From a virus, in IMG/VR virus record IMGVR_UViG_3300030060_004796, positions 1 to 64,000 of that record: a stretch of 64,000 nt of DNA; one strand, given 5' to 3'. The notes under the pieces are model-generated. The model was given only the letters and a program-made list of their open reading frames with translations, made no database searches and was not told the origin of the DNA. The position numbers and the translations under genes are program-made. This document shows positions 19,801 to 47,400 of this stretch, piece by piece. Numbering within the stretch: position 1 is the first letter of the stretch; each line of letters starts with the position of its first letter.

Positions 19801-22204
19801 AGCAGATTGTACATTTGGAGGAAGTTTTTCTAACATTGCACAAATTCAAGCTATTGCGCAAGATATAATTACTGCTATTACACCGCCTCCTGTTTATTCA
19901 TGTCCACCTGGATGTGACTTAGTAACAACATCTGCAGGTCAATTTTATTGTGAATGTATTGATTATTTAGATCCTGAATATATTGATATTACATCACCGG
20001 TTAATATAGAGGATGATTTATATTTTAAAGATGTTTCATGGACAGTAAGTTACGATCCTAAATATAAAGCATGGATGTCTTTCCATGATTGGCATCCACA
20101 ACTAATGATTCCTAGTTTAAATCATTTCTTTACAACAAATACTTATGAAGATCTAGAATCACAGCCAAGTTGTCCTCCAGGATTTACTTGGAATCCTACA
20201 ACACAAACATGTTGTCAAACATACCAAGGAGAATTTGAGGCAGATATTATTGTTGATGAAGTTCCTGTTGAAATAGATATTGATTCTATTCCTTGTAAAA
20301 TAGATATTGTATTAGCTTTAGATGCATCAGGATCTATGGGTCTTGGAGCTGACGGAGCTAATGATAATTGGAATGCTGCTGAAATTTTTATAAATGAGTT
20401 TGTATTTAACCTAGCAGATGAAATGATTATAGGTAATATACAAATAGGATTAAATCATTGGTCTAATCCAACTTTTGCAGGTATTAATGCAGCTAGCGGA
20501 CTTAATCCAATTACAAATGATACATACCCATCAATAGGAAATGGAAATACAGATGTTATTGGTGGTGTTACATATACTTATGCACAAGCAGTAGTACCTG
20601 ATGGAACAGGTGGTTTATCTATGACTAATAATCCAAGATTAGTATATGATGCAAGTGGAAGTGCAGTAACAACACAGTTTTGTTTTGCAACTAATCCTCA
20701 ACAGGGTACTGCAACTGAAATGGCAGAAGCTTATCAGTATTCTCAAAATCAATTATGGGAGGTAAAAGCTTCTGCTCTAGGAGATAGAACATTAGATCCT
20801 GGATATAGAAGAATATTAGTTTTTATATCTGATGGTGGAGATTTTGTAACTCACCCACTTAATCCTGTAGCTAATCCACCAAACATGGATGGAACTGCAT
20901 TTGGTAATACAGGCGGAGGTGCTTTACATAGTCCTCCTAGTAGTGGTGGTGGAATGATAACACCACAAAATAATACTGTAGATTGGAGTAATAACAATGT
21001 AGGGGGTGCTGGAACAGATGCTCTAATTAATGGTCAACAAGTACATTCTCAAAATATAACTATTTTTGCAAGCAATGGAGGAGGTGCACCAGCTGCAGGA
21101 AGTCAAACTGGGTATGAAGCTGTTGCAAATTGTGCTACTTATGGAACTTGTAATAATATGTGGGATGTAGATACAGGTCCAGGATGTAATCCTTTACAAG
21201 ATTGCCCATCAACAGTTGCAAGTGCAATAAGTAGTAATTTATGTACACTTCCTCCTGTTTGTATTTGTCCTCCAGGATATGAAAGAATAACTAGCAATTT
21301 AGATGGTACTGCACCACCTCACCAAGTTTATAGTGATCTAGATGATTGTGAACCAGAAAGAGCTGGTATATGTAGAAAATTAGAATGTGAATGTGATGTT
21401 GCTAATTTACCAATACCAACTATTCCTACTACAACAACAGGAAACTGCCCAACAGATATTTTAAATGGAATAGCTTTATACTACAATGAAGACACTTTTG
21501 TAGGAGATCCATCTTGGACAGGATACTCTAGTAATCCTGTAATGTGTCATTATGATTATGAATGTTGTGTTGAAGGTACAACAATTAGAGGTGGAATATG
21601 GAAACATAATGATAGATGTGATTTATTTGCAAACTACTATGGTAAAAATTATCCATGGGAAGTTGAATGGGTAGAAACTGTTGGTCAATCCGTAAATACT
21701 ATTAGAAGTATTGAATATCAATTAGAGTCATATATTTATAAAGGTAACTTAGCAGATGATTGTGGTGACAGGTTCCATGATTTAGATTGGAATTTTGATG
21801 AAGCTATTATTCATAACACAGAACAAGTTTCTGGATTACTAAGATTTAATTTAGATCCAAAAAATAATGTACCTTTGATAACTGAATACCCAATAATTAC
21901 AGGTAATGATATTCAAATACTATATAGTAAGGTAGAACAAAAATATAGATTTAATCAGTTCTGGGATATTACAAGAGACAGAGGAGAGTTTGATCCTAAC
22001 TGGAATTCATCAATATTTATAACACAGTTAAACGGTTACATAAGAGATCTAAATCAAGCAAACTTAGATTACTTTAAACCTTCCTTACAACGTAAGAAGT
22101 TTAGACATTACTGGAATAAAGTAGTTCTTAGAAAAAATATTTCAGGTAATAGAAAAATGATATTTAAATTAGCTAATACAAAAATTAATGCATCCTTTAG
22201 ATAA
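13805..22204 (+). CDS. Giant tail hub / stabilisation protein with two inserted VWA domains
   Basis: A 2799-aa protein. The first 1600 residues contain segments typical of crAss-like tail-hub proteins: FVKGMTKDPDSSMITKEQW near the N-terminus, a beta-rich region, and a YDPNYDLVYFSKKDF block. The C-terminus has KYRFNQFWDITRDRGEF and a basic tail. Two VWA domains interrupt this scaffold. VWA1 (about 1679-2030) has an intact MIDAS motif D1689-x-S1691-x-S1693 and a later IFDG. VWA2 (about 2160-2480) has D2173-x-S2175-x-S2177 and ILVFISDGGD. Each is bracketed by CPPG Cys loops: C1631 and C2033, C2123 and C2488. The scaffold strand SWTVSYDPKYKAWMSFHDWH (from 2078) lies between them. VWA domains bind ligands through a divalent metal, so host adhesion at the tail tip is likely. 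The last base overlaps the next start. Confidence 0.82.
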   Translation: MAEKQNTPKLQNTSDIDTDVFVKGMTKDPDSSMITKEQWTHARNAINNSVDGDLGTLGNEPANKQCSSAPFTIIGAIHLYGDKWVLFSTNNQQSEIGTWDDSECKYERIVNDFSCYQCLEQLGGIEETPCLNFNTQHLITGASKENFDCSWQVYWDDGVNPSRTLNLDNIPWKQNVISDEGADCVIYEDAIPLCLDCEKIRLAPLIDIPCIELSKSVDGGQLRNGSYQVYIAYVINDQKIGDYYGISNIQPLFAHEDMLSGLEIKISNLDKEFEYYELVIARNTQGEQTAKQIGFYSTEQTNISIDYINEKLPSKPLGTLPLTTPAYERSDKMYVVNDYLIRQGPTEQFDFNYQPLANNIHVHYTVTEFPDDYYAKGGNKPTFMRDEVYSFFIRFVYNTGEKSASYHIPGRAPYNWPGITDPAGNNPNVLDPWPGNNDLGTALWNQNGGLGTADVDRLFEVHNTADDGWNPAGIASNTLELQTDDGGRVIREGHMAYWESTERYPQDPVRWGDLCGQPIRHHKMPDETTAYVGMFEDPTGATVVNPNNFLDRTGQNNATINVLGVRFTNIAWPRFNASSDELCGPDNGAPTGPRIPNIVGYEILVGSREGNKSIIAKGITRNMRRYNLPNTSTGHEIGTGNLTGYMANYPFNDCNADPYLSAGNDWTYTRNGGIVNPGGNYTAGDTATNIFTFHSPDTSFNKPFLSPYELKSYGICTGTQVGNFVKSEKHPQHKLLRNISMWIAIIVGAGYAIGEMRGKKNKKMIPPKALNVGLVGFGEQHGGNRTTIVNTPSTSFANGWTAIATTTSASFNENTTARSGGRQGSAAPYDDGSNVVGGVVTGAGTSTAPTWAPIGSLGRLDTDGDQFMMANYNTNLANPLTGINSGAGGQGVLLSTATVAGAPKLFHSGSRALGMNIGYEPNVRNNMRNWGPNRGYIGAGEEWTYEGTRFESMPSLTQILFGAYQFMMFTAEGGQVIIDLIYNLVSYQDYAWKYNSQGLYWSTQQRSAGGVFRQLVNKGRYVGSSMQNLTANIRINNVQRPKTVVINTVTNGADFDPIGTFDQSRFCIGPTSTGGILGAWFNPGAEVNSTIGAHYCALKTNFTNQYGQIDQIKQIPVGCITYFADQIKPEDDHSPRDLDDMLFTTDIVYGGDCYINRYSEKVIMPFFWDFQKDMPDGMPYDYKLRANVPRPVFWMDTKKFELSQLVRDIVNFGWLISQITGGGGGGLSNSLPSGLFVLDRPTGDLGGDDGTNQTTGAGGIGAPSGGGPGALANAPNMAVSATQDNNRRSIFHVVNGYMYTHCNGVNEFYCESPINTAFRDWEDVDEKRHYDRLEYTDVDALFHADIIKKDNYYKYDTSLSKSRFNTQLISYGFIQARDYDPLVAEDCYTHYPKRLMYSLQAQLEAKKDFWRVFLPYNYKDFKNKVNVIKPVSKSGAMILFPHLSPVLWQGVDQLETDLGTKLTIGDGGLFSQPPQAIVNADLPHEYGSCESARSVVNTPSGLFFISQAQGKIFQYTQGLTNIADQGMKQWFNKYLPSILLKQFPEMEHCDSWIDNPVAGVGCQSVYDPNYDLVYFSKKDFECTLPECIDYVPCEGFVYNHSKCENVEPQACCPEGDDPYNPYVFVPGGPTCPPGFAVVSCLNGSPCCTDYSGNPPFPATITEPTCERIITLPAEEDQSSGQVDIVFAVDSSNSVDGAIPQNVGNMQNFVRTMITELNINNGITNGDIRVGLIHFGGGRAVRFPLFNGQQSSLPNSDEMFEFANQITLTNSVPTLLNWIGNPGAWNGTFHPADYRSTYGAASNSIANGGPSYDLPYGTDILAGIWGGQNLLYGLGARACPKVLITIFDGPMGYKCDGGGVAGANNPLAGSAGAGFFYTNTPYSVGGITGPDTFNGMTVPDPALVAAGTPAISTPDIRWDDASLGGGYDPCFNTNQGFAQTANAYDAQWFETNVRAAGNYTQQVPFIQKNYSIVVDPQGSAPTATHIAYSERYAGGGGLLPADCTFGGSFSNIAQIQAIAQDIITAITPPPVYSCPPGCDLVTTSAGQFYCECIDYLDPEYIDITSPVNIEDDLYFKDVSWTVSYDPKYKAWMSFHDWHPQLMIPSLNHFFTTNTYEDLESQPSCPPGFTWNPTTQTCCQTYQGEFEADIIVDEVPVEIDIDSIPCKIDIVLALDASGSMGLGADGANDNWNAAEIFINEFVFNLADEMIIGNIQIGLNHWSNPTFAGINAASGLNPITNDTYPSIGNGNTDVIGGVTYTYAQAVVPDGTGGLSMTNNPRLVYDASGSAVTTQFCFATNPQQGTATEMAEAYQYSQNQLWEVKASALGDRTLDPGYRRILVFISDGGDFVTHPLNPVANPPNMDGTAFGNTGGGALHSPPSSGGGMITPQNNTVDWSNNNVGGAGTDALINGQQVHSQNITIFASNGGGAPAAGSQTGYEAVANCATYGTCNNMWDVDTGPGCNPLQDCPSTVASAISSNLCTLPPVCICPPGYERITSNLDGTAPPHQVYSDLDDCEPERAGICRKLECECDVANLPIPTIPTTTTGNCPTDILNGIALYYNEDTFVGDPSWTGYSSNPVMCHYDYECCVEGTTIRGGIWKHNDRCDLFANYYGKNYPWEVEWVETVGQSVNTIRSIEYQLESYIYKGNLADDCGDRFHDLDWNFDEAIIHNTEQVSGLLRFNLDPKNNVPLITEYPIITGNDIQILYSKVEQKYRFNQFWDITRDRGEFDPNWNSSIFITQLNGYIRDLNQANLDYFKPSLQRKKFRHYWNKVVLRKNISGNRKMIFKLANTKINASFR

Positions 22205-25200
22205 TGAAGAAACCAAACCTTAAATATAATTTACCTAGTTATTCTGAAAAGTTTTTAGAATCTCTTAATCCTAGGATGCAGGCGTTAAGATCCTCATTAG
22301 GTTATAGTGATTATTCTCCTTTTAGAAATGAACCTTTCATAGATATTAAAACTCCAACGGGTATGATAGATATGTCAAATACAGGTATTCCATTATATGC
22401 TAATGGTAGGCTTTTAGCTCCATATTCTGGATTACATAATATGGGAACAACAAACGTTAGAGAAATACCTGCACGTAACATAGAAAATTTTACAGTCAAA
22501 TTTCCATTAAAAAAACATTTAGATAACAAGTTTAGACTTAGTGGAAATGTAAATCCATCAATTAATCTTAATAGTCCGTATTTATTAGATCTATATGGTA
22601 GATTAAGAGGAGAATATAATTTAAATAAAAATGTAAATATTTTTGGAGAAGCAACTACATCAACAACAGATGGTGTTAGTATTAATCCAGCAACAATAAA
22701 AGGTGGTTTAAATATTAATTTCCAAGATGGTGGTCAGTTAATGAGAGCTCAATATGGAATAGAACCTTATTTAGCAGTTCAAGATAATACATATGTTGAT
22801 ATACCACCACCACCTCCAGCACCAACAAAAGTTATAGATCCATGGCCTCAAGGTTCATATAGACCAGCTGATCCAGAACCTGCATGGTATAAAAAATTAC
22901 TTAATGTTGTAGCTCATCCAATGGAGGCTTTTGGTAGAAGTATTGCTAATCAAGATTGGTGGACAGGTGACTTGGGACAAGGAATACCAATGAGTCCACA
23001 ACATAGTGCAAGTACTTTGGGTGGTTTTGATTTGCTCAATACATTTGTTAATCCTGCTAGTTGGATAGAAGATGTAACTGATTCTGAATCTTTAGGTGAA
23101 GGTGCCCTTAATACAGCAATGATATTACCTATTTTTAAAGGTGGTAAAGTAATTAAACATGCAGATGAAGTTGTTGATGCTTCAAAACAAATAACTAAAG
23201 GTTCAGGTAAAGTAAAAATAGAAGATCCAAATGCATTATATAGAGTAGTAGATGTTCCTGTGGGAACAAGTGCAGATGAAATAGTTAAAGCTGCAGAGTA
23301 TGGCACAACAATACCAAAAGTAACAACTACAGGAAGACGTACAGGATATTCACAATTACAAAGAGAAACTCCTTTTGATGTATTAAATACTACTAGTAAT
23401 CAAGGATGGATTTTAGGTAGAGGAACAAATGATCCAGGTAATTTACTAAATTTATATGGAGGAAAAAATCCTTATGTAATAAAGATGGGTAGAGGAAATC
23501 CTTATGTAGGAGCAGAAAGTCTTAGTGCTATTAATCAAAGAACAGATATTTTAAGAAATTTTACTTTTCCATACACTCAAAATGTAGGAAAATGGAATCC
23601 ACTTAAAGGTCAATATGATTTACCTTTAGAACTGGGTGCAGGTGTATATACAACAGTTGGAAAAAGTGTAGATGATCTTGCCAAGATAATGCCAGGATCT
23701 ATTGTTAATCCTAATATGGTAAGTAGAGGTAGCAATAATATTACTACAATATTTGGTCCAAAAGGTTTTCAAGTTAGACAACCACAAGAAGTTTTACCAA
23801 TGAGTGAATATATAAAACGTGTAGGAAATAATCCTAATTTTAAATTTAATCTAGGAGGATCATTACCAAAAGCACAAGAAGGACCAGGCACTGATAATGA
23901 AAGATTAGATGCACATTCACTACATCCTGTTGCATCTCAGTCAAACTGGAAAGATTTACTAAGTTATAATATTAATCCATTAAATTGGCCTAATATTTTT
24001 AAACATAGTATAACAAGACCAGCTGAAATAGCTTTTCAAGGAGGGATAAATGAATGGTTAGCTGCAAATGTAAGACCTGGTGAGTATCCAAATATACCAC
24101 AATTAATAGGTGAACTTGAAGGTGGAAACCATTATATGAGAAGTATTAAAAATCCTGGTGGATATATTATGAATCAGGTAGATTCAGAGCCTTGGACAGA
24201 TAAGCAGGGAGATTTAACAATTGATGAAGAAGCTTGGAGAATGTCTTTGGGATTACCTGGACAACCTGGAGACATACCTAATAAATATATATTTAAATCA
24301 GATAATGTACCTTCTATAGGTGCAAATGAAGGAGATGTTTTTTATACTACAGATTTATTTGATTGGGATAAAGCAATTAATAAATTTAATAATCTAAGAA
24401 ACGAGTATGGTACAGAAGACTTTGATTTTTCTGATGTAGAAAATTTTAACCCAGCACAACGTTCTAGGGATCTAGACACTGAATATTGGAAGAAAAAAGA
24501 AGAGTATGAAGAAAGCATGAAGGATTCAGATGAAGAAATAGATTTTCATAGTACAGAAGAAGCTAAAATATTAAGGGAACAAATTAAAAACTTTGAGATG
24601 ATAAAAGGATATCACAAAGTACTAGATAAAAGTGGACAACCAATTCCTAATACTTATAGTTTTGTAGGAGGAGGATCTGATTATATAACGGATAGGGGGT
24701 TTGAAGAAGGCCACACCTTAGATCCTTTTGCAAATCTTACAATGAGTATGGGGGAAGATGATAAAGGTAGATTTATATCTTATTATGATAAATATGATTT
24801 TGATAGTCCAATAACTAGGAATTTTATAACTCCTATAAATTTCTATGATAAAAGATATATAAAACAAAATGATGATGGACAATGGATAATAGATCCAGAT
24901 CTAGATCCAGATCAACCAAGGAAACAAGATGGTGGTGGTGTAGACTTTAGCTCACTTCAAAAAGGAATTAAATGGGTTGAAAGTTTAAATGGTGAGTTAA
25001 TGAAAAATACACAATCATCTGCATCAGGTTACTATGGACAACTTTTTGATGAAATAGAATATGATGGAACAAGAGATGAATTTATTGCTGATACAACTTT
25101 TCAAGATGAGCTATTTAGAAAAAGAGCACATGGTGAAATTGAAGGTGTCCCAGGATTAATATCTAATGGAATAGAACTAGCAGAAGAATATAAAGATGTA

Positions 25201-28200
25201 GATCATGGACTAACTACTTTAGAAATAGCTGGTTTATCTAATATGCTAGGAAGACAAGGAACAAGAGAATATCTTGGAAATGTTATAAGAGATGGTAGAA
25301 CACTTGCAAATGTATTTCCACATTTATATGGAGATGATGTAAATCAAGCAAATAAAACACCTGATGAATATATTCAAAAGTTTAATGAAGGCCTAACAAA
25401 AAGAGAAGGTGGTGAATTTTTAAATAAAATAAGAAGACTAAATCAACAATTAAAAATATATAACTCTGGTGGTAGAATATCTCCACTAGCAAAAAAAGAA
25501 TTGATTGATCTAGAAATGATTAAACCTAAAATGCAAGGTGGAGGGTCAGTTCAACAAAGTTCTTATGTAACTAAAAGAGGAGATAATCTAAGTAGGATAG
25601 CTAGAAATAATAATATGACATTATCTGAGTTATTAGAATTTAATCCAAGATATTTAAATAACCCAAGTGCAATAGGAGTTGGAGATGTTATACAATTGTC
25701 TGATGCACCAGTTCAAAATAACTCTACACCTAATATGGTGTATGAAGTAAAGGGTGGAGATAGCTTATCAAAAATAGCAAGTCAATATGGTATAAGATAC
25801 CAAGATATTGCAGCATTAAATAATATAAATGATCCTACTAAAATAATGCCTGGACAGGTTATAAGACTTCCAGATAATGCTGTTGTTAGAGGATCTAATG
25901 TAACACAACAACAACATAGAGCACATTCAGTATATATACCTAGTCAAAGTAATGTTATTGTAAATTCAAATACTGGTACAAATGAAGTGTGGGCTAAAAG
26001 AGAACTAGATTCTGATGGAAATTGGAAAACTACAGGTAAACGTGCTTTAATCAATGAAATAAATAAAGATACTCAAGCAAATAGAATTGTTAGAGGTATG
26101 AATGATGTTGCTGAATCTGAAACAATAAATTATACAATTCAGAGTGGAGATATGCTAGGTAAAATAGCACGACAAAATGGTGTATCTGTACAAAAATTAA
26201 TGGAGGATAACAATATCACTGACCCTAGAAGAATACAACCGGGTCAAGAACTTACAATAAATAAGTCAACAGGAAATCCATATATTATTGTGGATGAAAA
26301 AGCTGGAAGAATGCATGTATATTATCCAGGAAATTCTGATCCAGTAAAGAGTTATCCTATTGTATCAGGATTAAATGAAGGAGATGCACAAACTAAAACA
26401 GTGATTAAATTCTTTAAGGATAATGAAGAAATACCACAAGAAGAACTTCAACCACTTATGGATAAACATGGTTTTGATGAGGTTGGACAAATTACATCTC
26501 TTCCAGGATATACTAGTGAAACAATGTGGGATCTTGGAAACAAATCAACGGGTGCTGGTGTTTACACTATTGATGCAGTAAATGAAAAAACTAAATATAT
26601 GGGAAATTCTTCTTCATTTGTATTAGCAAATCAAGCAGGTGATAGACCTGGTACAGTAATACACTCTACACCCAGTGCAAGTATGACAGGAAGATTAAGA
26701 GCATTAGATGAGGGTATGTCAGGTGATGAAGCTAGAGCATTAGGTATTGGTACAAATGGATGTATAAATGGAACTTGTAGTGCAATGACAGAATTATTTG
26801 AAAATCCTGATATAGGTAATGGAACACAAGTGTTTGTATTACCTGAATGGGAGGGAGATAACTTTGTATATGAAAATGGTCAAATAAACTTTTATACAAG
26901 ACAGTCAAATGATGAAAGATCAATGACATATGAAACAGAAAGCGGTCAAGTAATGGTGAATCCTCAAGGGTTAAATGAAACTCCAGGAAATAAGCAAGGT
27001 AATTATAAACCTATTAATATTACATTTGACAAAGAATACTATCAAAATAATTCTGAAAGATATGATGGAAGTGCTGACAATGAGAATGCAGAATTTAAAA
27101 AACATACACAACCATTTTTACAAGCATTGACAGGTAATAAAAAAACCATGATGGATAAATTTGGAATGGATGGAGATACATATAATGATCTGTCTATGAT
27201 TGCTTTTGGAATTTATGCTTATGAAAGTGGAATGGGAGATATTAATAGTAGTCTTGAAAATGCAACAAAATTTGCAGCAAAAGCTGGAGGTATGGGTCAA
27301 ACTAATCCAGACGTAGTTTCTAAATACAATACATATGGTTTAAGAGATCAAGATAATAGTATAGGTTTTACACAAATACAATGGCAATGGTTAGATGAAG
27401 AAGAAAAAGAAATGTTAGGGAAATTAGATATTGATGAATCTAACTATGCGGAACATTTAATGGATCCTGCAAAATCTGCAGATGTAACAATGGCTATATT
27501 ATACAACCGTCATAAAAATAATCAATCTGCAGTAAATATAAGAAATGATAAAGCTAGAGAAGAAGCAATAGCTAATGGTGAAGAATTTAAAGACAGTGAT
27601 AAAGAAGTTTATGATCCTTTTCTATATCTTCCAAAAACCTGGAATAAAGCGGATGGATATACAGATATGGTAAATAAATATACTGACTACATTACTGTAA
27701 CAGAAACAGATATTGATGATGTTGATAATAGTGTGATTGTCAAAGGAGAATACTCTGATGATAATGAAGCATATAACATAAGAGAAGAACTGAAAAGACA
27801 AGAAAATTTACATGGCCCTAATGCAGATTGGAAAAGTAAATCTACACAAATTATTGAAGATGTAGGTGATTTCCTTGGTGTAGATGGTTACACAGCTGAT
27901 GAAGGTGTAGTAGGAGATGTTCTTGACAAAGCTATGGACTATGTTGGAAAGGACGCAAAAGATGTAACATTTGGTAATATAGCATCAGATGTTTATGATG
28001 TAGGTGCGCAAGCAGTAGATAGAACTATAGATTCTGTTGTTGATGGTTATCAAGCTGTAACAAATGCTGCATCAGATGCTGCTGATGCTGTTGGTGAATG
28101 GTGGGATAATGTAGATTTGAATCCTCTTTGGAAACTAGGAGGAGAGTTTGGAGTAAAAAATCAAGTACAATTTTATGATGACTATATCAGTGGTGTATAC

Positions 28201-28332
28201 AAAGGAACAAGACAAGAAAATAGTGCAAATAAATTATATGATAAACTAAATAGAATGTATTACAATGATTCTAAGAAATCAGGTAAGAGTCAAATTGATG
28301 TTATGAGATCTATCCTGCATGGCAATAGGTAG
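22204..28332 (+). CDS. Giant multidomain virion protein: three LysM, two muramidase-like domains, L,D-transpeptidase-like domain
   Basis: A 2042-aa protein. Residues 109-175 form a small outer-membrane-barrel-like beta module that ends at a GG linker (176). About 230-400 resemble linker and toxin-like segments (ALYRVVDVP, R347). A second linker, GGSLPKAQ, lies at 551-558. About 918-1060 resemble a lysozyme-type domain with E926 in WVESLNG and SGYYGQ. LysM repeats, which bind peptidoglycan, lie at about 1121-1168, 1179-1225 and 1308-1356. About 1359-1570 match a YkuD-type L,D-transpeptidase with H1487 and C1520 (GTNGCIN), but the usual Arg after the Cys is Asn. About 1660-1790 resemble a lytic transglycosylase (E1674 in YESGMG; GFTQIQ). 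Probably carried in the virion to open the cell wall during entry. Its ATG overlaps the previous stop. Confidence 0.8.
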   Translation: MKKPNLKYNLPSYSEKFLESLNPRMQALRSSLGYSDYSPFRNEPFIDIKTPTGMIDMSNTGIPLYANGRLLAPYSGLHNMGTTNVREIPARNIENFTVKFPLKKHLDNKFRLSGNVNPSINLNSPYLLDLYGRLRGEYNLNKNVNIFGEATTSTTDGVSINPATIKGGLNINFQDGGQLMRAQYGIEPYLAVQDNTYVDIPPPPPAPTKVIDPWPQGSYRPADPEPAWYKKLLNVVAHPMEAFGRSIANQDWWTGDLGQGIPMSPQHSASTLGGFDLLNTFVNPASWIEDVTDSESLGEGALNTAMILPIFKGGKVIKHADEVVDASKQITKGSGKVKIEDPNALYRVVDVPVGTSADEIVKAAEYGTTIPKVTTTGRRTGYSQLQRETPFDVLNTTSNQGWILGRGTNDPGNLLNLYGGKNPYVIKMGRGNPYVGAESLSAINQRTDILRNFTFPYTQNVGKWNPLKGQYDLPLELGAGVYTTVGKSVDDLAKIMPGSIVNPNMVSRGSNNITTIFGPKGFQVRQPQEVLPMSEYIKRVGNNPNFKFNLGGSLPKAQEGPGTDNERLDAHSLHPVASQSNWKDLLSYNINPLNWPNIFKHSITRPAEIAFQGGINEWLAANVRPGEYPNIPQLIGELEGGNHYMRSIKNPGGYIMNQVDSEPWTDKQGDLTIDEEAWRMSLGLPGQPGDIPNKYIFKSDNVPSIGANEGDVFYTTDLFDWDKAINKFNNLRNEYGTEDFDFSDVENFNPAQRSRDLDTEYWKKKEEYEESMKDSDEEIDFHSTEEAKILREQIKNFEMIKGYHKVLDKSGQPIPNTYSFVGGGSDYITDRGFEEGHTLDPFANLTMSMGEDDKGRFISYYDKYDFDSPITRNFITPINFYDKRYIKQNDDGQWIIDPDLDPDQPRKQDGGGVDFSSLQKGIKWVESLNGELMKNTQSSASGYYGQLFDEIEYDGTRDEFIADTTFQDELFRKRAHGEIEGVPGLISNGIELAEEYKDVDHGLTTLEIAGLSNMLGRQGTREYLGNVIRDGRTLANVFPHLYGDDVNQANKTPDEYIQKFNEGLTKREGGEFLNKIRRLNQQLKIYNSGGRISPLAKKELIDLEMIKPKMQGGGSVQQSSYVTKRGDNLSRIARNNNMTLSELLEFNPRYLNNPSAIGVGDVIQLSDAPVQNNSTPNMVYEVKGGDSLSKIASQYGIRYQDIAALNNINDPTKIMPGQVIRLPDNAVVRGSNVTQQQHRAHSVYIPSQSNVIVNSNTGTNEVWAKRELDSDGNWKTTGKRALINEINKDTQANRIVRGMNDVAESETINYTIQSGDMLGKIARQNGVSVQKLMEDNNITDPRRIQPGQELTINKSTGNPYIIVDEKAGRMHVYYPGNSDPVKSYPIVSGLNEGDAQTKTVIKFFKDNEEIPQEELQPLMDKHGFDEVGQITSLPGYTSETMWDLGNKSTGAGVYTIDAVNEKTKYMGNSSSFVLANQAGDRPGTVIHSTPSASMTGRLRALDEGMSGDEARALGIGTNGCINGTCSAMTELFENPDIGNGTQVFVLPEWEGDNFVYENGQINFYTRQSNDERSMTYETESGQVMVNPQGLNETPGNKQGNYKPINITFDKEYYQNNSERYDGSADNENAEFKKHTQPFLQALTGNKKTMMDKFGMDGDTYNDLSMIAFGIYAYESGMGDINSSLENATKFAAKAGGMGQTNPDVVSKYNTYGLRDQDNSIGFTQIQWQWLDEEEKEMLGKLDIDESNYAEHLMDPAKSADVTMAILYNRHKNNQSAVNIRNDKAREEAIANGEEFKDSDKEVYDPFLYLPKTWNKADGYTDMVNKYTDYITVTETDIDDVDNSVIVKGEYSDDNEAYNIREELKRQENLHGPNADWKSKSTQIIEDVGDFLGVDGYTADEGVVGDVLDKAMDYVGKDAKDVTFGNIASDVYDVGAQAVDRTIDSVVDGYQAVTNAASDAADAVGEWWDNVDLNPLWKLGGEFGVKNQVQFYDDYISGVYKGTRQENSANKLYDKLNRMYYNDSKKSGKSQIDVMRSILHGNR

Positions 28333-28391: not shown

Positions 28392-31300
28392 ATGTTTTAT
28401 TATAACAATCCATATATTAAAGGTTTTGAACACGGTGGTGAGCACTGGATGAATGTACTTGGTGAAGAAGTTGATCCATCTGACATAACTACTGATGGAA
28501 TTTACTTTAAAACTGATGCTGATGGTATGCAATCTAAACATGTATATTCAAGAGGTGCATGGCAACAAGGAACAGGTCCTAGTAGTAGTAATAATAACAA
28601 TAATAATACTCAAAACAATCCTCCCAATAATACACAAAGTAATACACAAAGTAATACACAAAGTAATACACCAACTGAAACAGAAGAAGGAGTTTATGCT
28701 GATCATGATGATGCTTATGATTATAAAGTAATTGATGGTGTTTGGTACACAAGAAAAAAAGGATCAACAGAAGAATGGATTAGTTTAGCTGAAAATGAAG
28801 AAGCTACAAATAAATTAAATTCAGCATATCCAGAAGCAATAAGTACAGACAATGCTACAAATGATGACGAAAAAACAGATGATGATATTGTAGAAGAAGC
28901 AAATAAAAATATTGAAGGAGATAATAATGCTGTATATTATGATGGAGAATTTAGATCTCCTGAAGAAGCTAATTTATTATCTGGTGTAGGTGACACAGGT
29001 TTATTTGATTTAGTAAAGGCTATAGATACAACTTACGATAGCTTTAAGGATGAAAACTATTATGATCCAGGAACAAGAATGGATTATATGAAAATAGATT
29101 TTAAAAATACATCAGGTGAAGGGTTGTATTTTGATGAAGAAAGATTTTCTAAAAATCCTAATAAACCAGGTAGTTTTTTAATAGATGAAGAGCAGGCACA
29201 AGAACAGGACATGCAGCAGTTTCTTGATGATAGACACAAAAGAAATCCAAAATTATATTCTAAAGTAAAAGATTTTGACATAGATCTATATAACAAGACA
29301 GGACACCTAGACTATAGAAAAGGATTATTTAACAGAAAGCATGAAGGATTCTTAGGAGATCAATTAGAAAATAAATATGGAGACGCTTCACATATAGGTT
29401 GGACAATGGATAAAATGGGTAACTATGAAGATGCATTTGATTACTTAACACAAAATCCTGATGACCCAACTAAATTTAATCAACAAGATTTTGATGATGG
29501 ATTTGGAGGTATACCATTTGATCCTAACAACCCTTTAAATTATGACTTAAGTGATGAGTATAGAAATAGTCCAAAACATAATCCATATATAGAATATGGT
29601 GATCATGATAATCCTAATATAATTCAAAACAAAATGGGAGATGGAAGGTATAGTAAAGTGCCACAGTTTCCACTTACACCAGAATCTCCTGACTTTATTC
29701 AACCAGATCCTAAATCAGATCCAGATCCAGATATTGAATCAGATTTAAATATTAAAAGTGCAGAAGATATTGCTGCAGAAGAAGAAGCAAAAAAACTAAA
29801 AGAACAACAGTTAGACTATATAGAAGAACAATTAAGAAAGTCACAGAAAAAACAATATGGTGGTATGTTTCAAAATGGAAGTGGTAGTTGGTTAGATAAC
29901 TTTAGTACAGAAAACATAATTAAACGTTTTTCTCCAAACACTCATAAAAAAATAAAAAATGTAGAAAGTCAGTATGAAGGATATAGTAATCCAGATGCAA
30001 ACCGTATTTTAAATATGTTTCTAGGAAATGATGCAAACTATGAATTGCAAAATGTAGATGCATATAATTTAGATGCTGATATAGTAAATACTAATACAGG
30101 TAAAGTAGATGAAAAATTAACAAACTTTGCAATGAGAAATATTGGTAATGCAAAAGATTTAAATAATATTTATCAAGATTATAATTTAGATAATGCTAAT
30201 TCAGTATGGGATTGGGCTAACCCTTTCTTTTTCAATGATGATGCATCAGACAATAGAGAAACACTTTATGATGTAGCAACTGATATTTATAAAACATATC
30301 CTAATGAAGTAAACAGACATTGGGTAAATTTGAGAGACAAAACATTACAACAAGTAGATGATGCATGGGTAGAAGGAAGAGATAATGTTGTTAATACAGT
30401 AGATGATGCTTGGGTAAATACAAGAGATACTGTATCAAATACAGCAAAAGATGTTTGGAATTGGGCCACTGATTGGCAAGATGGTGGTGAACCAACATAT
30501 CAAGTAGAGGTTATTAAATACCCTCTTGGTTATAAAAATATGCCACCAGGTCACATTGAATCAAGAATATTAAATCCAGATAGTTTACCAGAAAAATACA
30601 AAAAATTAGATAAAGATGGTGATCCAATTTATAAACCATATTTAAATGCTTGGATTAGTGGAAATAAAAAAGTAAGATATAATGCAGATGATGATTATAC
30701 ATCTGGTATACAAACACTTATCTTAAATCTAAATGAATCAGATTTAAAAAAATATATGAATACAGCTCAACAAAGTTCAAGGGGTGAAAGTATAGATACA
30801 TGGTTTGGAAGTATACCAACAGCATGGGGTGGAGGTCCAGGTGACTATGATTTTATAACTAATAATTGTGCAGATCAAACGTGTACAGCATTTGGATTAA
30901 ATGAGTCTGCATATACAATGGGAGGAATAACAACACCACAACAAGTATTTGATGCACTTCAGGAGGATCCAAGATTATTGGCAGGATCAATAAAAGGAAA
31001 TCAAACAAATCTAGAAAGAGTGGGAAAAGGTATTCATGGTATTACAAATCTATATAAAGTACCATGGAATATGGGTAAACATTTAGTTAATAAAACTGGA
31101 GAAGGGATAGATTATATAGAAGATAATACAGATCTTCAATTTGACTGGGAAGGTGTTAAGAATATTCCTGACTATCATTATGATAATTGGATTCAACCAA
31201 CTGGTGAGTTTATAGAAGATACTTATGAAGATACTAAATCAGGTCTTAGAGATGTAGGAAATGCAATCAATAGTTTCTTTGGAGGTAGCAGTAGTTACTG

Positions 31301-32429
31301 GAAGCAGGGTGGAGAATTACCTAAGTATCAGTTTGCAGGTTCTCCCTTTAGTGTGCAAAATCAACAAGGTATTTTACAAGGAGCAAATACAGGATATGAT
31401 CTATATGGTAATCAAATAGAACCATTTAAGTTTGGTAATCTTTCAGTATCAAATCCTAACTTATCATTGACAAATTCAAACTTAACAACACCTCCTGAAA
31501 AGACTGAACCATTCTTTAACTCTGAGGATAGAATGTTTGCATATAATCAATCTGTAAATAGATCAATGGATGAATGGGATGCATTTACTGCAGATATGAA
31601 TGATAGAATACAAAACCCATCTTTAATCCAAACAGAAACAGATATACTACAAACTCCTTCATTAGAGATTGACCCTAATCTACAAAAAGATATGGAACTT
31701 AGATCAGATATGTTTGACCATAGGTTACAAAGAACTGATCCAGATGCATGGATGAGAAAAAAGAAAAAAGAAATGAGGGATAGTGAAAGAGAGTTTAAAA
31801 AGAATATGGAAGATCTAAGAGATGATATGCCTAAATATGAAGGTACAAGAAAGAATCTAAGAGATTATGAAAAAGCTAAAGAATTAGGTTTTGAAGATGA
31901 TTTCTCTGATCCGGATGATCCTAAGTTTATGATGGCAGAATATAAAGACTATCTTAAAAGTGAAGAAGAAGAAGATCTTAGAAGAGAGTTAAGAGAAGAT
32001 CAATTAAATGAAGATAACAAAGATAGAGGTATGTCATTTGGAGATAAAGCATGGGCAGGGTTTAATAGATTTATGGATAGTAAAGGTGTTCAAACATTTA
32101 GTAAAATTGGACAAGGTGCAGTAAGAATAGCTAAACCTTTAAATAGTATTATAGAAAATTACAGATCAGAACAGCAAAAAGATAGTATGATGAAAAATGC
32201 ATATCTATCAGACAATATGTTTGCAGCTAAAGATGCAGATATAACAGGAAGTAAAGGAGATTATGATGCTAACACAGGTATATTTAGACCAGATGATAAA
32301 GTAGTAGTTGGTCAAACTTATGCAATGCATGGTGGTGAGCATATATATAACAGAGGAGGAGAGATGGAAATAGATATGAATACATATAAACAATTAGTGG
32401 CCGCAGGGGCAGAAATAGAAATTATATAA
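28392..32429 (+). CDS. Large modular virion protein with permuted papain-like peptidase domain
   Basis: A 1345-aa acidic protein. The N-terminus (1-60) contains a GG motif (15-16), followed by a low-complexity Asn/Thr/Gln region (about 65-100) with a 12-base tandem repeat. The middle is highly charged and probably flexible. GG linkers at 490, 698 and 973 (GGELPKYQ) divide it into modules. Just before 698 are 15-residue amphipathic repeats with W and RD. About 705-850 resemble a circularly permuted papain/NlpC-P60 or LRAT-type domain, with H721 in PPGHIE first and C826 in NNCADQTC later. The C-terminus (HGGEHIYNRGGEMEID) is of a type seen in other Bacteroidota phage virion proteins. Likely packaged with the genome. 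The catalytic call is inference from motif order; substrate unknown. Confidence 0.65.
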   Translation: MFYYNNPYIKGFEHGGEHWMNVLGEEVDPSDITTDGIYFKTDADGMQSKHVYSRGAWQQGTGPSSSNNNNNNTQNNPPNNTQSNTQSNTQSNTPTETEEGVYADHDDAYDYKVIDGVWYTRKKGSTEEWISLAENEEATNKLNSAYPEAISTDNATNDDEKTDDDIVEEANKNIEGDNNAVYYDGEFRSPEEANLLSGVGDTGLFDLVKAIDTTYDSFKDENYYDPGTRMDYMKIDFKNTSGEGLYFDEERFSKNPNKPGSFLIDEEQAQEQDMQQFLDDRHKRNPKLYSKVKDFDIDLYNKTGHLDYRKGLFNRKHEGFLGDQLENKYGDASHIGWTMDKMGNYEDAFDYLTQNPDDPTKFNQQDFDDGFGGIPFDPNNPLNYDLSDEYRNSPKHNPYIEYGDHDNPNIIQNKMGDGRYSKVPQFPLTPESPDFIQPDPKSDPDPDIESDLNIKSAEDIAAEEEAKKLKEQQLDYIEEQLRKSQKKQYGGMFQNGSGSWLDNFSTENIIKRFSPNTHKKIKNVESQYEGYSNPDANRILNMFLGNDANYELQNVDAYNLDADIVNTNTGKVDEKLTNFAMRNIGNAKDLNNIYQDYNLDNANSVWDWANPFFFNDDASDNRETLYDVATDIYKTYPNEVNRHWVNLRDKTLQQVDDAWVEGRDNVVNTVDDAWVNTRDTVSNTAKDVWNWATDWQDGGEPTYQVEVIKYPLGYKNMPPGHIESRILNPDSLPEKYKKLDKDGDPIYKPYLNAWISGNKKVRYNADDDYTSGIQTLILNLNESDLKKYMNTAQQSSRGESIDTWFGSIPTAWGGGPGDYDFITNNCADQTCTAFGLNESAYTMGGITTPQQVFDALQEDPRLLAGSIKGNQTNLERVGKGIHGITNLYKVPWNMGKHLVNKTGEGIDYIEDNTDLQFDWEGVKNIPDYHYDNWIQPTGEFIEDTYEDTKSGLRDVGNAINSFFGGSSSYWKQGGELPKYQFAGSPFSVQNQQGILQGANTGYDLYGNQIEPFKFGNLSVSNPNLSLTNSNLTTPPEKTEPFFNSEDRMFAYNQSVNRSMDEWDAFTADMNDRIQNPSLIQTETDILQTPSLEIDPNLQKDMELRSDMFDHRLQRTDPDAWMRKKKKEMRDSEREFKKNMEDLRDDMPKYEGTRKNLRDYEKAKELGFEDDFSDPDDPKFMMAEYKDYLKSEEEEDLRRELREDQLNEDNKDRGMSFGDKAWAGFNRFMDSKGVQTFSKIGQGAVRIAKPLNSIIENYRSEQQKDSMMKNAYLSDNMFAAKDADITGSKGDYDANTGIFRPDDKVVVGQTYAMHGGEHIYNRGGEMEIDMNTYKQLVAAGAEIEII
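28629..28672 (+). repeat. 12-base tandem repeat (TQSN codons)
   Basis: AATACACAAAGT occurs three times in a row (28629-28640, 28641-28652, 28653-28664), followed by a partial AATACACC. In protein it gives a Thr-Gln-Ser-Asn run within the disordered N-terminal region of the 1345-aa protein. It is in frame and its copy number could vary without breaking the gene. Confidence 0.9.
30309..30443 (+). repeat. 15-residue amphipathic repeats (VxxxWVxxRD)
   Basis: Three consecutive 45-base units encode VNRHWVNLRDKTLQQ (640-654), VDDAWVEGRDNVVNT (655-669) and VDDAWVNTRDTVSNT (670-684). A degenerate fourth unit (AKDVWNWATDW) runs to the GG linker at 698. Trp recurs at position 5 and Arg-Asp at 9-10. The pattern predicts an amphipathic helix that could lie on a membrane or pack as a coiled coil. 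Confidence 0.8.
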
Positions 32430-41448: not shown

Positions 41449-44400
41449 ATGGCAGATCAAGAAAATTTTGATGCAAATGTAAATTCAACTGAGAATGCTT
41501 TGGATATGAATTCTATAGTTAATACTGATGATATGCAAGTACCATCATTTAACTCTGATATTGTAGACCAAGTACTTCCAGGAACTGATCATGTTATTCC
41601 AGAAGTTAAACCTTCTGTAGACATGGGCAATCCTGTGTATCCAGATATAGAAGGACCTGGTACAGGTATTGTAAACTTTGAAGAACCATATCCTGGAAAT
41701 TTTAATTATGATACAGAATTATTTGAAGATGTTGTAGATCAGGCTATTGAAATACAAGGAATGCCTAATCTAGAAATGAATCAGCCTTTCTTTGATATGA
41801 TTGACAGAGCAGCTATTGATATAGATAAATATCCAATCATGTTTTCAAATAATGACATGAATGCTGCTTATCCAGGAAGAGCTGGTACAGATTTTGATCC
41901 ATTTAGAACAAGTACAGGTATTCCAGATTTGAGTACACAAAACGGTATTAAAGCATTTTTATCTAGTGCAGTTGATGTAACAAAACAAATAAAAGGTCCA
42001 GATAAAACTCCAGGATATAGAGATCCTTTTCACTACAGTGCAAGAGACTATGACTTAGATAGATATTATAGACATCCTAGATTTTCTGATTTAGGATTCC
42101 ACCCTATGGCTGATAATGAAGCTTATTATCAAGCTAACTCTAGCAAGTGGGATAATTTTACAAGAACACGTAGTGCTTACATGGATATGTTTGGTCCAGC
42201 ATTTACTTCAGGATGGAGATCTATAGGTCAGATGTTTACAGGTGAAACTTTACAATCTGATATGATTGGAGCCATGGCTATGGATGATGCAATGAGAGTT
42301 GGTAGATCTACAAGTGGAGGAACACGTGGATTCTTTAATGATCTATTTCTTAATAGTGCATATACTATGGGTATTATATCAAGTATTGCTGTAGAAGAAT
42401 TAGCATTATTTGGAGCTGCGGCTTTACAAGGGGGTCTGAATCCTGCTGCTGATGCCGCACTTATTGGTAGAACTGGTATGAATATCGGTAGAGTTTTACA
42501 AGCAATAAAAAGAATGTTTACCGTAGGTGAACGGGGTGCTGCTGGTACTAGGATGCTTGCCAAAATGAGAAATCTTAATAATGTTAAAGCCTTTATGACA
42601 GCAGCAAAAGCTGGCGGAAAATCTACAGGTAGATTTTTTGCTCATGTATTTGGTCCAGAAACATTATATCAATATAAGAAATTTAAAACTGCTGCTAAAG
42701 CTGGTGATAATTTCACGCAAATGGCAAAAGCTGCAGGATATGCAGGTGGTTTATATAGGGACTTTAGAGCTATTAATTTAGCTTGGGCAGAATCTAAGAT
42801 GGAAGCCGGTCTTGTTGAAATGGAATTACAAAAATCACTCTATGAAGAAGTGATGGCTCTAAAGGATGGAGAAGATCCATCTGTAAAAGAAATGGAAATG
42901 ATTGTTAGTGATGCTAGAGCAGCAGCATTAACAACTTCACTTATTAATATGCCTATTATATATGCAAGTAATAAACTTGTATTAGATGGTGCATTAAGAG
43001 GATTTAAACCTTTAGGTAGGATAATGGATGAATCTTTATCTGGGCCATTTGGTAGAATACTGTTTAGAAAGGGTCTAAAGGAAAATCCATTTGTTGATAT
43101 GGGTAAGAAGTGGATTATTGGTGAGAATATGAGAAGAATGTGGAAGGCTGGTTTTAAAGCTAGTTGGAAACACATGGGTGCTACAGCATTAAGATATTCT
43201 ACAGCAAACTTTGCAGAAGGTATTCAGGAACTTGCACAAGAAGCTACATCACATGGTGTAAAATCTTACTTTACAAGTTTATATGATAGCCCAATGGGTA
43301 TAGCAAATGATGTTCATTTAGCACAAATGACACAAGCTCATCAAGCAGGTACAGAATCTATGTATGGTAATTATACACATACAGATAGAATATCAGGTAT
43401 GACAGCTGCAGAAGCTATTAGTAAAGGTGCAGCTTCACAATGGAGCGGTCAAGGTCTTCATACATTTATGTCAGGATTCTTAATGGGTGGAATTGTACAA
43501 GGTCCTCAAAGATTAATGTTTGATGTTACTCCAAATGTATTAAGATGGGGTAAGGACAAAGTGATGAAAACTACAGATTATGCTGACTATAGAGCTAAAA
43601 GAGATAAAGAAATAGGTAATGCGGTAGATACATTAAATAAAGTTTATGCAGATCCTAAGAAGTATTTTGACATAACTAAGTTAAATGCTATGACTCAGAA
43701 AGAGTTAAATAGTGCAATGTTTAAAGCAGCAGGAGCTGATGACATAACTAGCTTTATGGACTATAAAGATCATGGTGTCTTTAGTGCCTTATATACTGTA
43801 ATGGCTACAGGAAACTTAAATAACTTTACTGAACAACTTAAAGATTTTAAGAACTTAGATGACACAGCATTAAAAGAAGCTTTTAGTTCTGTTTCTTCTA
43901 CTCCAGAAAAAATTAGAGCACGTATTGATAAAATGCTTACTAGAGCAGAAGAAATCAAAAAAGGTTATAACAAAATGAAAGATGAATTTGTTAATCCTTT
44001 TAATCCTGATAGATATAAAAAAGATAGCAGATCATACCATGAAGAACAATTAAGACAAATAGCATTTGAGCATGCCAAGATGATGGCTATGTTTACGCAA
44101 ACAACTTTTGAACAATCATTAGAAAGAGCTAATGATATTTATAATACACTATCTTCTGATCCTGTACTAGGAAGTATTTCAGAGAGTGATATTAGAGCTT
44201 TGACAAGTAGAGAAGGTTTAGCAAAAGAAATAGCTCTATTAGAAAAAGAAGTAGAATTAGGTGCTAAAACAAAAGAAGAAAAAGAAATATTAGCTAGAAA
44301 GAAAAAGAAGTTAGAACTCCTTAAAAATTATTCTGAAATATTTAATGATTCAAGCAATCAAGCTTCAACCAACGGTCAAATGTATTCTGAATTATTTGAG

Positions 44401-47400
44401 ATGGATGGAAAAACATATAAAACAAAATCTATGAATATAGGTAGGTATGACAAAAGAAAGATGGGTAAATTAAAACCTGCATTTGTTGCATACCTACAAT
44501 TCTTAGCTGAAACAAATGATGATCTTGTTATTAATGATAAAATAATACCTACTTTAAAAAAGATTATAGACTTTGGATATTTAAAAGGTAGAGCTTCTGA
44601 TTATGCACAAGCTGCTAATGTTCTAATGAATCCTGGAAATCTGTATGAAATGACAGATAGATTAGCAGCCATAATGGGAGAAGCTTGGGAACAACATAAG
44701 AATAAAAATAATCTTACATTAAAACTTAAAAAATATCACGATCAAACAATACGTAGACAATTTCTAAAAGATCTTGCAGATGATATGATTCAACCTGATC
44801 CTGATCAAACAGTAGCATTCCTAGAAGAAGGTATAATGCCTACAGACTTTTATGATGGAACACCAGGCAGTGAGGGTTTAATAACTAAAAGTAGTGATCC
44901 ATTAAAGTGGGCAACTATAGAAGGACTTAAAGAAAACTATTATGAAGCAACTAAAGTAGATAAGGGTGAAACAACTGACGCTACTAAAGAAGAAAGAAGG
45001 CAGGCTGAGTCAGAAACTTCAGAAGGAACTCAAGCAGAACCTGACTTTGAAAGTGTTACAGGAAGAAGTAAATACCAACAGTTTCTACAAAAAGATAAAG
45101 ATACACGTGAGATTATAGAAAGAAAGTATAAAGAATATAAATCTACTTGGAATTCTGAGCAAGGTCCGCTTATGAGTAAGAATGAATGGGCTGCTTCACC
45201 ACAAGGTGGAAAAAATATTATAAAGTCTAGATATGAGTTAGATCAAATGTATCAAGCAGAACCTGCTGAAGTAAAAGATAAATATCCTACTCTAGAAGAT
45301 TGGATAATTGCAAATAAAAAGAATCCTTTAATTGCAGGAACAAACGGAATACTCACTAAAAATAATGTTGGTATTTCAGATGTATCTGTAAACTTATCTA
45401 AAGAAACAGGAGTACAAAGAGATAAACTTGATGGTAACCAAAAAGTAATTGCTACAGATAAGGCTACTGGATTAAGTGTTATTGAGGTAACTAACTATGA
45501 TGATAATAATAATAAAGATGTACAATATTATATATCAGATAAAGACCCACAAAATAGAGTTTGGAAAACCTATGAAAATCTAAACCCTAAAGGTAAACAA
45601 GTAATTAGATCTGGATATGTAAAAAAGACAGATGCAGTAAAAGCATATAATTATATATTAAGAAATATGCCTTCAGACACTGTGTTTGAATTTGGTAAGG
45701 ATGATCAAGGAATGCCTATTAAGTGGACAACTTCAGATATTGTACTTGACTCTGCAGATAATGAATATATTGTTAGATCTAATCCTAAGATGGTTAGAAG
45801 AAATAATAATCTTTATGTAGTACCAATTGGTAAAGCTAAAGCTAAAAAAGGAGAGGATGAAAGAGTTTATATAACAGAAGATGAATGGAGAACTCAAGGA
45901 TGGAAAAAGAAAGAAGAATCAAAACTTGATATAGGTACAACAATACAGAAACTTAGTTCATTTGAACCAGTTAAAATATATCCTTTTGACGGAAGTAAAG
46001 TATTATTTGGAAAGTTTAAAAATCATCCAGTACCAGAGGAAGGAGCAGAGTTGTCATTTGATGATGTTTTAAGGAGTTTATCAGAAGAGGATAGAAAAAA
46101 TATTACATTCCTAGTTGAAAAGAATCCAGCGTATGATCAATATTTGCAAGACTTAGAAAGTGGAAGTCTTCAGCCATATCAAGGTGATCCTAGATTTGAT
46201 CCAAATCCAGCTATACGTAAAGGACAAAATAAATATGAAGTTACTATAATGTTGGGTAATAGACCTATTGGTAAGATGATGGGTGTTGGGATAGCAACAT
46301 TAGTAGATCCTAAAACTGGACAAAAAATTGATGGACACAAAATAACTACAGAACAAACAGAAAGAATTTTCAGACTTAATGGTAGAGATGCAGCAGATGT
46401 AGCAGCAATGGTTAGAAGAAATTATGCAAAGGCTAATTTAATAACTAGAGAAATTGAAAATAGAATTGGAACTAAAAGTTCAACTGTAATTAAAATCAGT
46501 AGTTTACAAGATATTGAGTTAAATGTGTTACCTGGTTACACAGGATGGTATGTTGATAATGACAACAATCCTATTAATCCTAGATCTCCTGGTGCAAAAA
46601 AGAATGCTAAACGTGCTTCAACACCGTGGGCAGATATACCTCAATCATATAATAATTATGATGGTGAATTAATTATATATGACACAAAAAGATCAAGAGA
46701 TTCAGGAAGAAGATCTTCTACAAAAGTGTGGTCAATTGATCCAAGTAGTGCAAGAGGTAAAACAATATCTAATGAGATTACAAATTACATTCAGAAAAAA
46801 GGCTTATTATCTGTAGGTCAATTGGGATCAGGTAGATACTTACAGTTTGTGAAACTACCAAATGGTACAATTCATCATTTTGAATTAAAGTTAGATCCGC
46901 TATCAGAAGAAAGCTTAAATGATATTGCTGTTGATATTAAAAATAAACAACAGGAACTTATTGGTAAGGCATATAATGAAAAAGGAAAATTAAACAAAAA
47001 GCAAGCGGTACTTACAAGAGATAAAATTAACCAAGAACTAGCAGAATCTTTCTACATACTTTCAAATATTGTTGGGGATGATATAGAAATCTACTTTAAG
47101 GAAACAGGTGAGATGATGTTTAAAGTAGAAAGAGAAGATTCAAAAGTAACTATAGCTCTTGAAGAAAAATTCTTTGAACTTATCACAGATGGAAAAAGTT
47201 TAATAGAAACAATTAATAATGAGTTTAAAAGAGTGGAGGCAGATAAAGCAAAGAGAGATAAAAAGTTTAAGAAAACTAACTTTAATCTTACAATGGAAAG
47301 CTTTTCTCCATCTATACCAGCTAACTTAACTGATCCAACTCAACTTGTAGATTCTGGTGTTTCAGCAAGAGTTATAGCAACTGTGTCATGGGGACAATTA

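Follow-up and report, generated by a model that had tools for sequence, protein, structure and literature searches.

Genomic setting and layout of the carrier protein

The window, i.e. the whole stretch of DNA analysed here, comprises bases 1–64000 of a virus record of 120,198 bases. The muzzle, neighbour, carrier and polymerase genes and all features of the carrier given below lie on its plus strand. The gene at 13805–22204 matches the Crassvirus muzzle family (PF25731) with 93.5 bits, well above the cut-off of 27, and we therefore regard the source as a crAss-like phage and use this gene as context for the cargo position. Residues 1683–1748 of the 2799-residue muzzle protein additionally match the von Willebrand A family (PF00092; 40 bits against a cut-off of 23.8). 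The following gene (22204–28332) encodes a protein with LysM repeats (PF01476, 136.7 bits) and an L,D-transpeptidase (YkuD) domain (PF03734, 27.6 bits against a cut-off of 23.4); this neighbour in cargo position also contains a GGSLPKAQ linker. The second gene after the muzzle gene (28392–32429) encodes a protein of 1345 amino acids, termed the carrier, whose orthologue in L036 shows 44% identity along almost its entire length. As its gene follows that of the crAss muzzle, the carrier is probably packaged in the virion as an ejected cargo protein. Further downstream, 41449–57030 encodes a 5193-residue protein with the motif ADFDID, which we take to be a catalytic motif of crAss virion RNA polymerases, so that this protein is probably a virion RNA polymerase of giant size.

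The muzzle of crAss001 is gp44, and its cargo proteins gp45 and gp46 as well as the polymerase-associated proteins gp47, gp49 and gp50 were found in virions by mass spectrometry (PMC10172136). Like the carrier, the crAss001 cargo proteins C1 and C2 are large, and by gene number they come directly after the muzzle and ahead of the RNA polymerase genes; the available passages of the same paper report no enzyme domain for them, whereas the carriers described here are modular and contain GG linkers. Likewise, crAss001 has three separate polymerase-associated proteins, whereas the window has the single 5193-residue protein with ADFDID. Among the 19 module-bearing records searched, the muzzle was detected in 13, and in 11 of these, the window included, the module lies 2–12 kb downstream of the muzzle match on the same strand. 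Contrary to this usual place, it lies ~25 kb upstream of the muzzle in the other two (G010 and G129). No muzzle was found in the remaining six of the 19 records, one of which (G126) has 90 kb with the module at the contig start.

Based on alignments, hhalign comparisons, structure models and fold searches, we delineated a permuted NlpC/P60-like domain, termed the module, at residues ~703–868 of the carrier (30498–30995). The sequence has a GG linker before it (residues 698–699; 30483–30488) and the linker GGELPKYQFAG after it (31308–31340), with related linkers in the relatives. The module comprises the motif PPGHIE (30543–30560) with the candidate catalytic H721 (30552–30554), the invariant N752 (30645–30647) as candidate third, polar residue of a triad, Y819 (30846–30848) as candidate active-site tyrosine of the superfamily, and the motif NNCADQTC (30861–30884) with the candidate nucleophile C826 (30867–30869) and an invariant second cysteine, C831. 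A first-pass annotation of this DNA had placed H721 and C826, 105 residues apart, in these two motifs after the GG at 698–699, and the sequence confirms these positions. The domain end that it had set at 30920 (residue 843) is too early, as the invariant T847 and P849 and a strand predicted in our model at residues 862–868 lie beyond it. The carrier closes with a conserved carboxy-terminal tail (residues 1185–1345; 31944–32426), common also to two orthologues without the module, L126 and L131 (31% and 26% identity by blastp, respectively).

Conservation and family of the permuted domain

Sequence searches against Pfam, PHROGs, NCBIfam, PDB sequences and named phages yielded nothing usable for the window protein or its domain, and the best BFVD match (E 7.5e-12, 43% identity) is to a homologue from Virus NIOZ-UU157 whose sole annotation is LysM protein. 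Relatives were obtained by scanning viral contigs with the domain and with growing alignments, giving 26 contigs in the last list. One further relative (L030, contig WLWP01000004.1) was binned in a Pseudomonadales MAG; this contig bears a crAss muzzle in addition to the carrier gene and, because of the muzzle, is probably a misbinned phage contig. The alignment used here (A6) contains 17 sequences, namely those of 15 of the 26 contigs, L030 and the window; the other 11 contigs hold close siblings and were left out, although both motifs, read by eye, are kept in all 11.

Across the alignment, identity to the window domain ranges from 66% down to 25%. Ten positions are nevertheless identical in all 17 sequences (P719, G720, H721, N752, N825, C826, A827, C831, T847 and P849), and W754, Y819 and F821 change once each. 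The spacing between the histidine and the cysteine varies from 75 to 126 residues, with 105 in the window, and constant residues amid loops of variable length are what an active site gives. The H721–C826 pair is more than a chance pairing, as shown by the ten positions identical in 17 of 17 sequences; the histidine precedes the cysteine throughout, and for both residues we infer a catalytic role. The NNCAD loop that had been put forward as a hallmark holds for N825, C826 and A827, but not for residue 828, which is an aspartate in ten sequences and a threonine in seven. Y819, kept in 16 of 17 sequences seven residues before the cysteine, may represent the conserved tyrosine of the superfamily, for which human PPPDE1 has the same −7 spacing (Tyr101/Cys108; PMC3142127).

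Sub-threshold Pfam matches to Lnb_N (PF13387), also known as DUF4105, were observed for 10 of the 12 members of alignment A5, the window's own copy giving none. The best relative scored 18.8 bits and none reached the cut-off of 22.2 bits, for which reason we do not file the domain as Lnb_N. Weak matches to the injection translocase family PF16928 (E 0.099) and the spectrin repeat family PF23289 (E 0.29) each occurred in a single one of the 12 members and were set aside.

The phage profile was compared by hhalign with families whose members were taken from bacterial genomes, all of the class of MAG G003, titled Pseudomonadales bacterium. We used 20 of 20 loci for Lnb_N, 10 of 15 for C92, 11 of 15 for NlpC, 4 of 7 for LRAT, 13 of 15 for C39 and 6 of 6 for CHAP; the loci dropped were weak or partial matches except for one strong NlpC locus (L093). 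As control, 100 column-shuffled profiles per family were run. The comparison gave 67.1% for Lnb_N/DUF4105, 18.7% for C92 and 5.5% for LRAT (from four LRAT sequences), each reached by 0 of 100 shuffles, whereas canonical NlpC/P60 (0.08%), CHAP (0.28%) and C39 (0.09%) did no better than chance, with 68, 14 and 67 of their 100 shuffles, respectively, reaching the real score. The matching families have the histidine before the cysteine and the failing ones the usual order; with this reversed residue order and these scores, canonical NlpC/P60 (PF00877) and the double-glycine peptidase C39 (PF03412) were rejected as families for the domain. An earlier run with three families and 12 phage sequences, of which 10 rows were kept, agrees.

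The confident part of the Lnb_N alignment comprises 51 columns, covering a strand–helix pair and the cysteine motif without the histidine, and the extended alignment places H721 on the histidine and C826 on the cysteine in both runs. For C92 the confident part comprises 37 columns without the cysteine motif; its extension places C826 on the cysteine in both runs and H721 on the histidine in the earlier run, ~3 residues off in the later one. The confident LRAT alignment is limited to 17 columns from the four sequences.

Lnb_N, a domain found in lipoprotein N-acyltransferases from Bacteroides and related bacteria, shares with the phage domain the order of a GH followed by a strand, a strand–helix pair and then Y-x-F-x-x-x-NC. 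In contrast to Lnb_N, the phage domain has an invariant second cysteine and a PGH and scores below the Pfam cut-off, and it forms a module within what is probably a cargo protein of a phage, not a host envelope enzyme. The likeness to C92/YiiX-YaeF (PF05708) and LRAT/PLAAT (PF04970; TIG3 structure 2lkt) is weak, albeit above all 100 shuffles in both cases. The second cysteine of LRAT lies seven residues after the catalytic one and the third residue of YiiX is a glutamate (PMC3142127), whereas the phage domain has its second cysteine at +5 from the candidate catalytic one, an asparagine as candidate third residue and no LRAT-type NCEHF phrase.

Structure comparison points in the same direction, more weakly. 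The model of the window domain, calculated from 9 sequences, reached a pLDDT of 67.4 and a pTM of 0.70, with inserts of low confidence, and that of a compact relative (L006; 154 residues, 20 sequences, ~60% identity to the window domain) a pLDDT of 79.6 and a pTM of 0.81. In the L006 model, C98 opens a helix (98–106) and H23 a strand (23–28), with block pLDDT values of 81 and 86, respectively. The top Foldseek match for both models was the type VI effector TseH (6v98), although weak (E 0.078 and 0.024, TM 0.35–0.40, rmsd ~11). In VIA-align, where by the tool's own caution a Z below 8, as for every row here, may mean only a common arrangement, TseH led for the window model with a Z of 6.7 (next row 2.2). 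The L006 model gave the RID domain of MARTX toxins (5xn7; Z 6.0, 118 residues aligned, rmsd 4.3) and TseH (Z 5.8, 116 residues, rmsd 4.2), followed by two entries of Aichivirus 2A (Z 3.5), an unrelated antibody complex (2.3) and TIG3 (2.2). Apart from the antibody complex, all these rows are proteins known to be permuted or LRAT-like, or, for RID and Aichivirus 2A, taken by us to be so. TseH, which has a permuted core, aligns with the phage domain over 116–129 residues at 10–15% identity and differs in being delivered by a secretion system rather than a phage. RID, a fatty-acyl transferase with a permuted Cys–His core, shows 12% identity to the phage domain, and its chain is much larger and its biology unrelated.

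Taken together, conservation, the controlled profile comparison and, more weakly, structure comparison make us highly confident that the fold is a circularly permuted NlpC/P60 domain with the histidine before the cysteine. The permuted NlpC/P60- or LRAT-like reading of the first-pass annotation is thereby supported; of the two observations that it had named as refuting, a large distance between H721 and C826 in a confident model or their lack of conservation, the second does not apply.

Carriers with and without the module

The carriers of the module differ in composition among the relatives. Among the seven carriers scanned, LysM in L010 and an SLT transglycosylase in L120 share the polypeptide with the module, each protein having in addition one YkuD match below the cut-off, and no cell-wall domain was found in the other five. 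The LysM and SLT domains are hints towards the envelope, and they keep a peptidoglycan function of the module alive as well.

Several carriers have further segments. A SET domain match lies near the start of the carrier L116 (4179–6959; L118 is nearly identical) with 23.6 bits against a cut-off of 22.4 for PF00856; SET is a protein methyltransferase fold and not expected in phage cargo. In the carboxy-terminal third of the carriers L037 and L039, we observed a second segment with a cysteine followed by histidines (CNTYSC ... GDLVRGHMY or GDLIRGHMY ... H), which by eye looks like a canonical NlpC/CHAP-type domain and has no Pfam entry at E 0.05. HELGH or HELSH motifs in the same linker-joined proteins of L010, L012 and L119 suggest zinc metallopeptidase modules, and the domain scan gave no peptidase family match in L010 and L119.

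The orthologues L126 and L131 match the L030 carrier over residues 1–263 and again from ~656–666 onward at 46–59% identity. The ~390 residues in between, the module included, are missing in both, and L131 also lacks ~residues 967–1179 of the L030 carrier. Both orthologues retain the KEGGE and GGSLPKAQ linkers and the conserved tail. These natural empty sites show the module to be an optional cassette, the linker motifs at its edges having been located by eye in the sequences. The GGSLPKAQ-type pattern occurs in seven contigs, two of which (L127 and L130) hold, by eye, another kind of protein; of the five relevant ones, L126 and L131 are those shown to be carrier orthologues. Scanning with the A6 profile revealed no copy of the module on L126 (68 kb), L131 (56 kb) or a third contig with similar linkers (G138, 117 kb), contigs that may be incomplete, and the same profile found exactly one copy in each of six records known to have the module.

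Proposed acyl chemistry and competing functions

As a whole, our best explanation, to which we assign an even chance, is that the module is a cysteine enzyme of the LRAT/YiiX/DUF4105/TseH-like permuted kind, borne as an exchangeable part of a probable cargo protein and acting on acyl esters. Acyl chemistry on lipids or lipoproteins is our first reading of the function, with the balance about even, because by analogy permuted members act on lipids and have a hydrophobic S1 pocket and the phage domain has a −7 tyrosine like that of PPPDE1. The permuted members are described as having a hydrophobic S1 pocket, a Cys/His triad and a conserved tyrosine (PMC3142127). The LRAT, YiiX and DUF4105 (Lnb) clades are lipid-linked, and phospholipase activity in vitro is described for Tox-Act1 and, in one assay, for TseH, which was inactive in a mass-spectrometry assay and active in the other only at pH 8.9 (PMC12994826). 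Permuted relatives include peptidases too, namely PPPDE and LupA (PMC10318531).

For this enzyme we infer packaging, catalysis, substrate, site and benefit, in the following sequence of steps. The virion would contain the 1345-residue carrier, which would leave before the DNA by threading through the muzzle. On reaching the periplasm or the inner membrane, the module would refold, beside cell-wall modules that belong to this or to neighbouring cargo proteins; crAss cargo has been proposed to refold in the cytoplasm (PMC10172136), which counts against this step. H721, oriented by a polar residue for which N752 is the candidate, would activate C826, and Y819 would be situated close to the active site. 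The activated cysteine would then attack an acyl ester of a phospholipid or of a lipoprotein, yielding an acyl-enzyme that could either be hydrolysed, as by a phospholipase, or pass its acyl group to an acceptor, as by an acyltransferase. The membrane would thereby be altered during entry of DNA and protein. A more specific version, in which a virion-borne acyltransferase at the inner membrane attaches fatty acids to tunnel proteins that the phage itself has ejected, or to host lipoproteins, is a long shot; if true, DNA entry would depend on phage-delivered protein lipidation.

Of the three functions that the first-pass annotation had offered, analogy favours an acyltransferase (or a lipid hydrolase), and a peptidase acting at GG linkers fits worst. 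Such a peptidase would free itself and its neighbours by cutting the GG linkers of the cargo proteins. The module is flanked by GG linkers, and papain-like enzymes that cut after GG exist, as in C39. For polyvalent proteins, a peptidase domain has been proposed to release its neighbour by autoproteolysis (PMC5512222). The two orthologues without the module, however, keep their GGSLPKAQ linkers, which lowers the idea rather than excluding it because the contigs without the module may be incomplete; moreover, the C39 profile gives no match and has the reversed residue order, and the crAss001 structure paper (PMC10172136) has 0 instances of the strings 'proteoly', 'cleav' and 'peptidase' in its main text. 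We thus consider a GG-linker peptidase very unlikely. A peptidoglycan amidase or endopeptidase, cutting cell-wall peptides so that the periplasmic layer opens for DNA entry, is possible yet rather unlikely. The name-giving members of the superfamily cut peptidoglycan, two of the seven carriers scanned combine the module with LysM or SLT, the neighbouring ORF has LysM and YkuD, and NlpC/P60 proteins are described as sometimes tail-associated in jumbo phages (PMC7824862). Against this reading, the canonical NlpC/P60 and CHAP profiles match no better than shuffles, and the closest profiles are those of the permuted, lipid-linked families (PMC12994826).

The module could also be an effector that, once injected, acts on a host protein by acylation, deamidation or cleavage, in the manner of RID. 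RID is the top VIA-align row for the L006 model, the presence or absence of the module among orthologues resembles effector turnover, and crAss cargo is proposed to reach the cytoplasm (PMC10172136). As RID and TseH are tied within 1 Z and none of the data obtained here suggests a host target, we regard an effector as clearly unlikely. That the module is a catalytically dead fold serving in binding or structure appears extremely unlikely: enzyme activity is a prediction, but despite divergence elsewhere in the domain H721, C826 and N752 are always retained, and Y819 almost always.

Acyl chemistry, our first reading, bears on a step of infection that is not settled, namely how crAss-like phages pass DNA and very large proteins through the host envelope (PMC10172136). 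The domain is most aptly regarded as a new family of permuted NlpC/P60-like modules occurring in what is probably cargo of crAss-like phages, linking a phage module to domains that serve as bacterial toxins and lipoprotein acyltransferases. Among the matches listed in the open-licence literature, none described a domain of this kind for crAss-like phages. A Crassvirales review (PMC10136315) has 0 instances of 'peptidase', 'papain' and 'LysM' in its main text, and the same count applies to 'papain', 'NlpC', 'permuted' and 'LRAT' in that of the paper on polyvalent proteins of phages and plasmids (PMC5512222). The module could help the phage to cross or alter the host membrane, and with an ejected enzyme acting on lipids, chemistry at the membrane would join that already known at the cell wall. 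A single cysteine, C826, provides a handle whose mutation tests the proposed membrane chemistry, for which the natural orthologues without the module form a ready comparison. Elsewhere in the window, the protein encoded at 38021–41437 matches weakly a PHROG annotated as head maturation protease (E 0.068, 13.7 bits), so that another peptidase in the genome is conceivable, which could be relevant to cleavage at the GG linkers.
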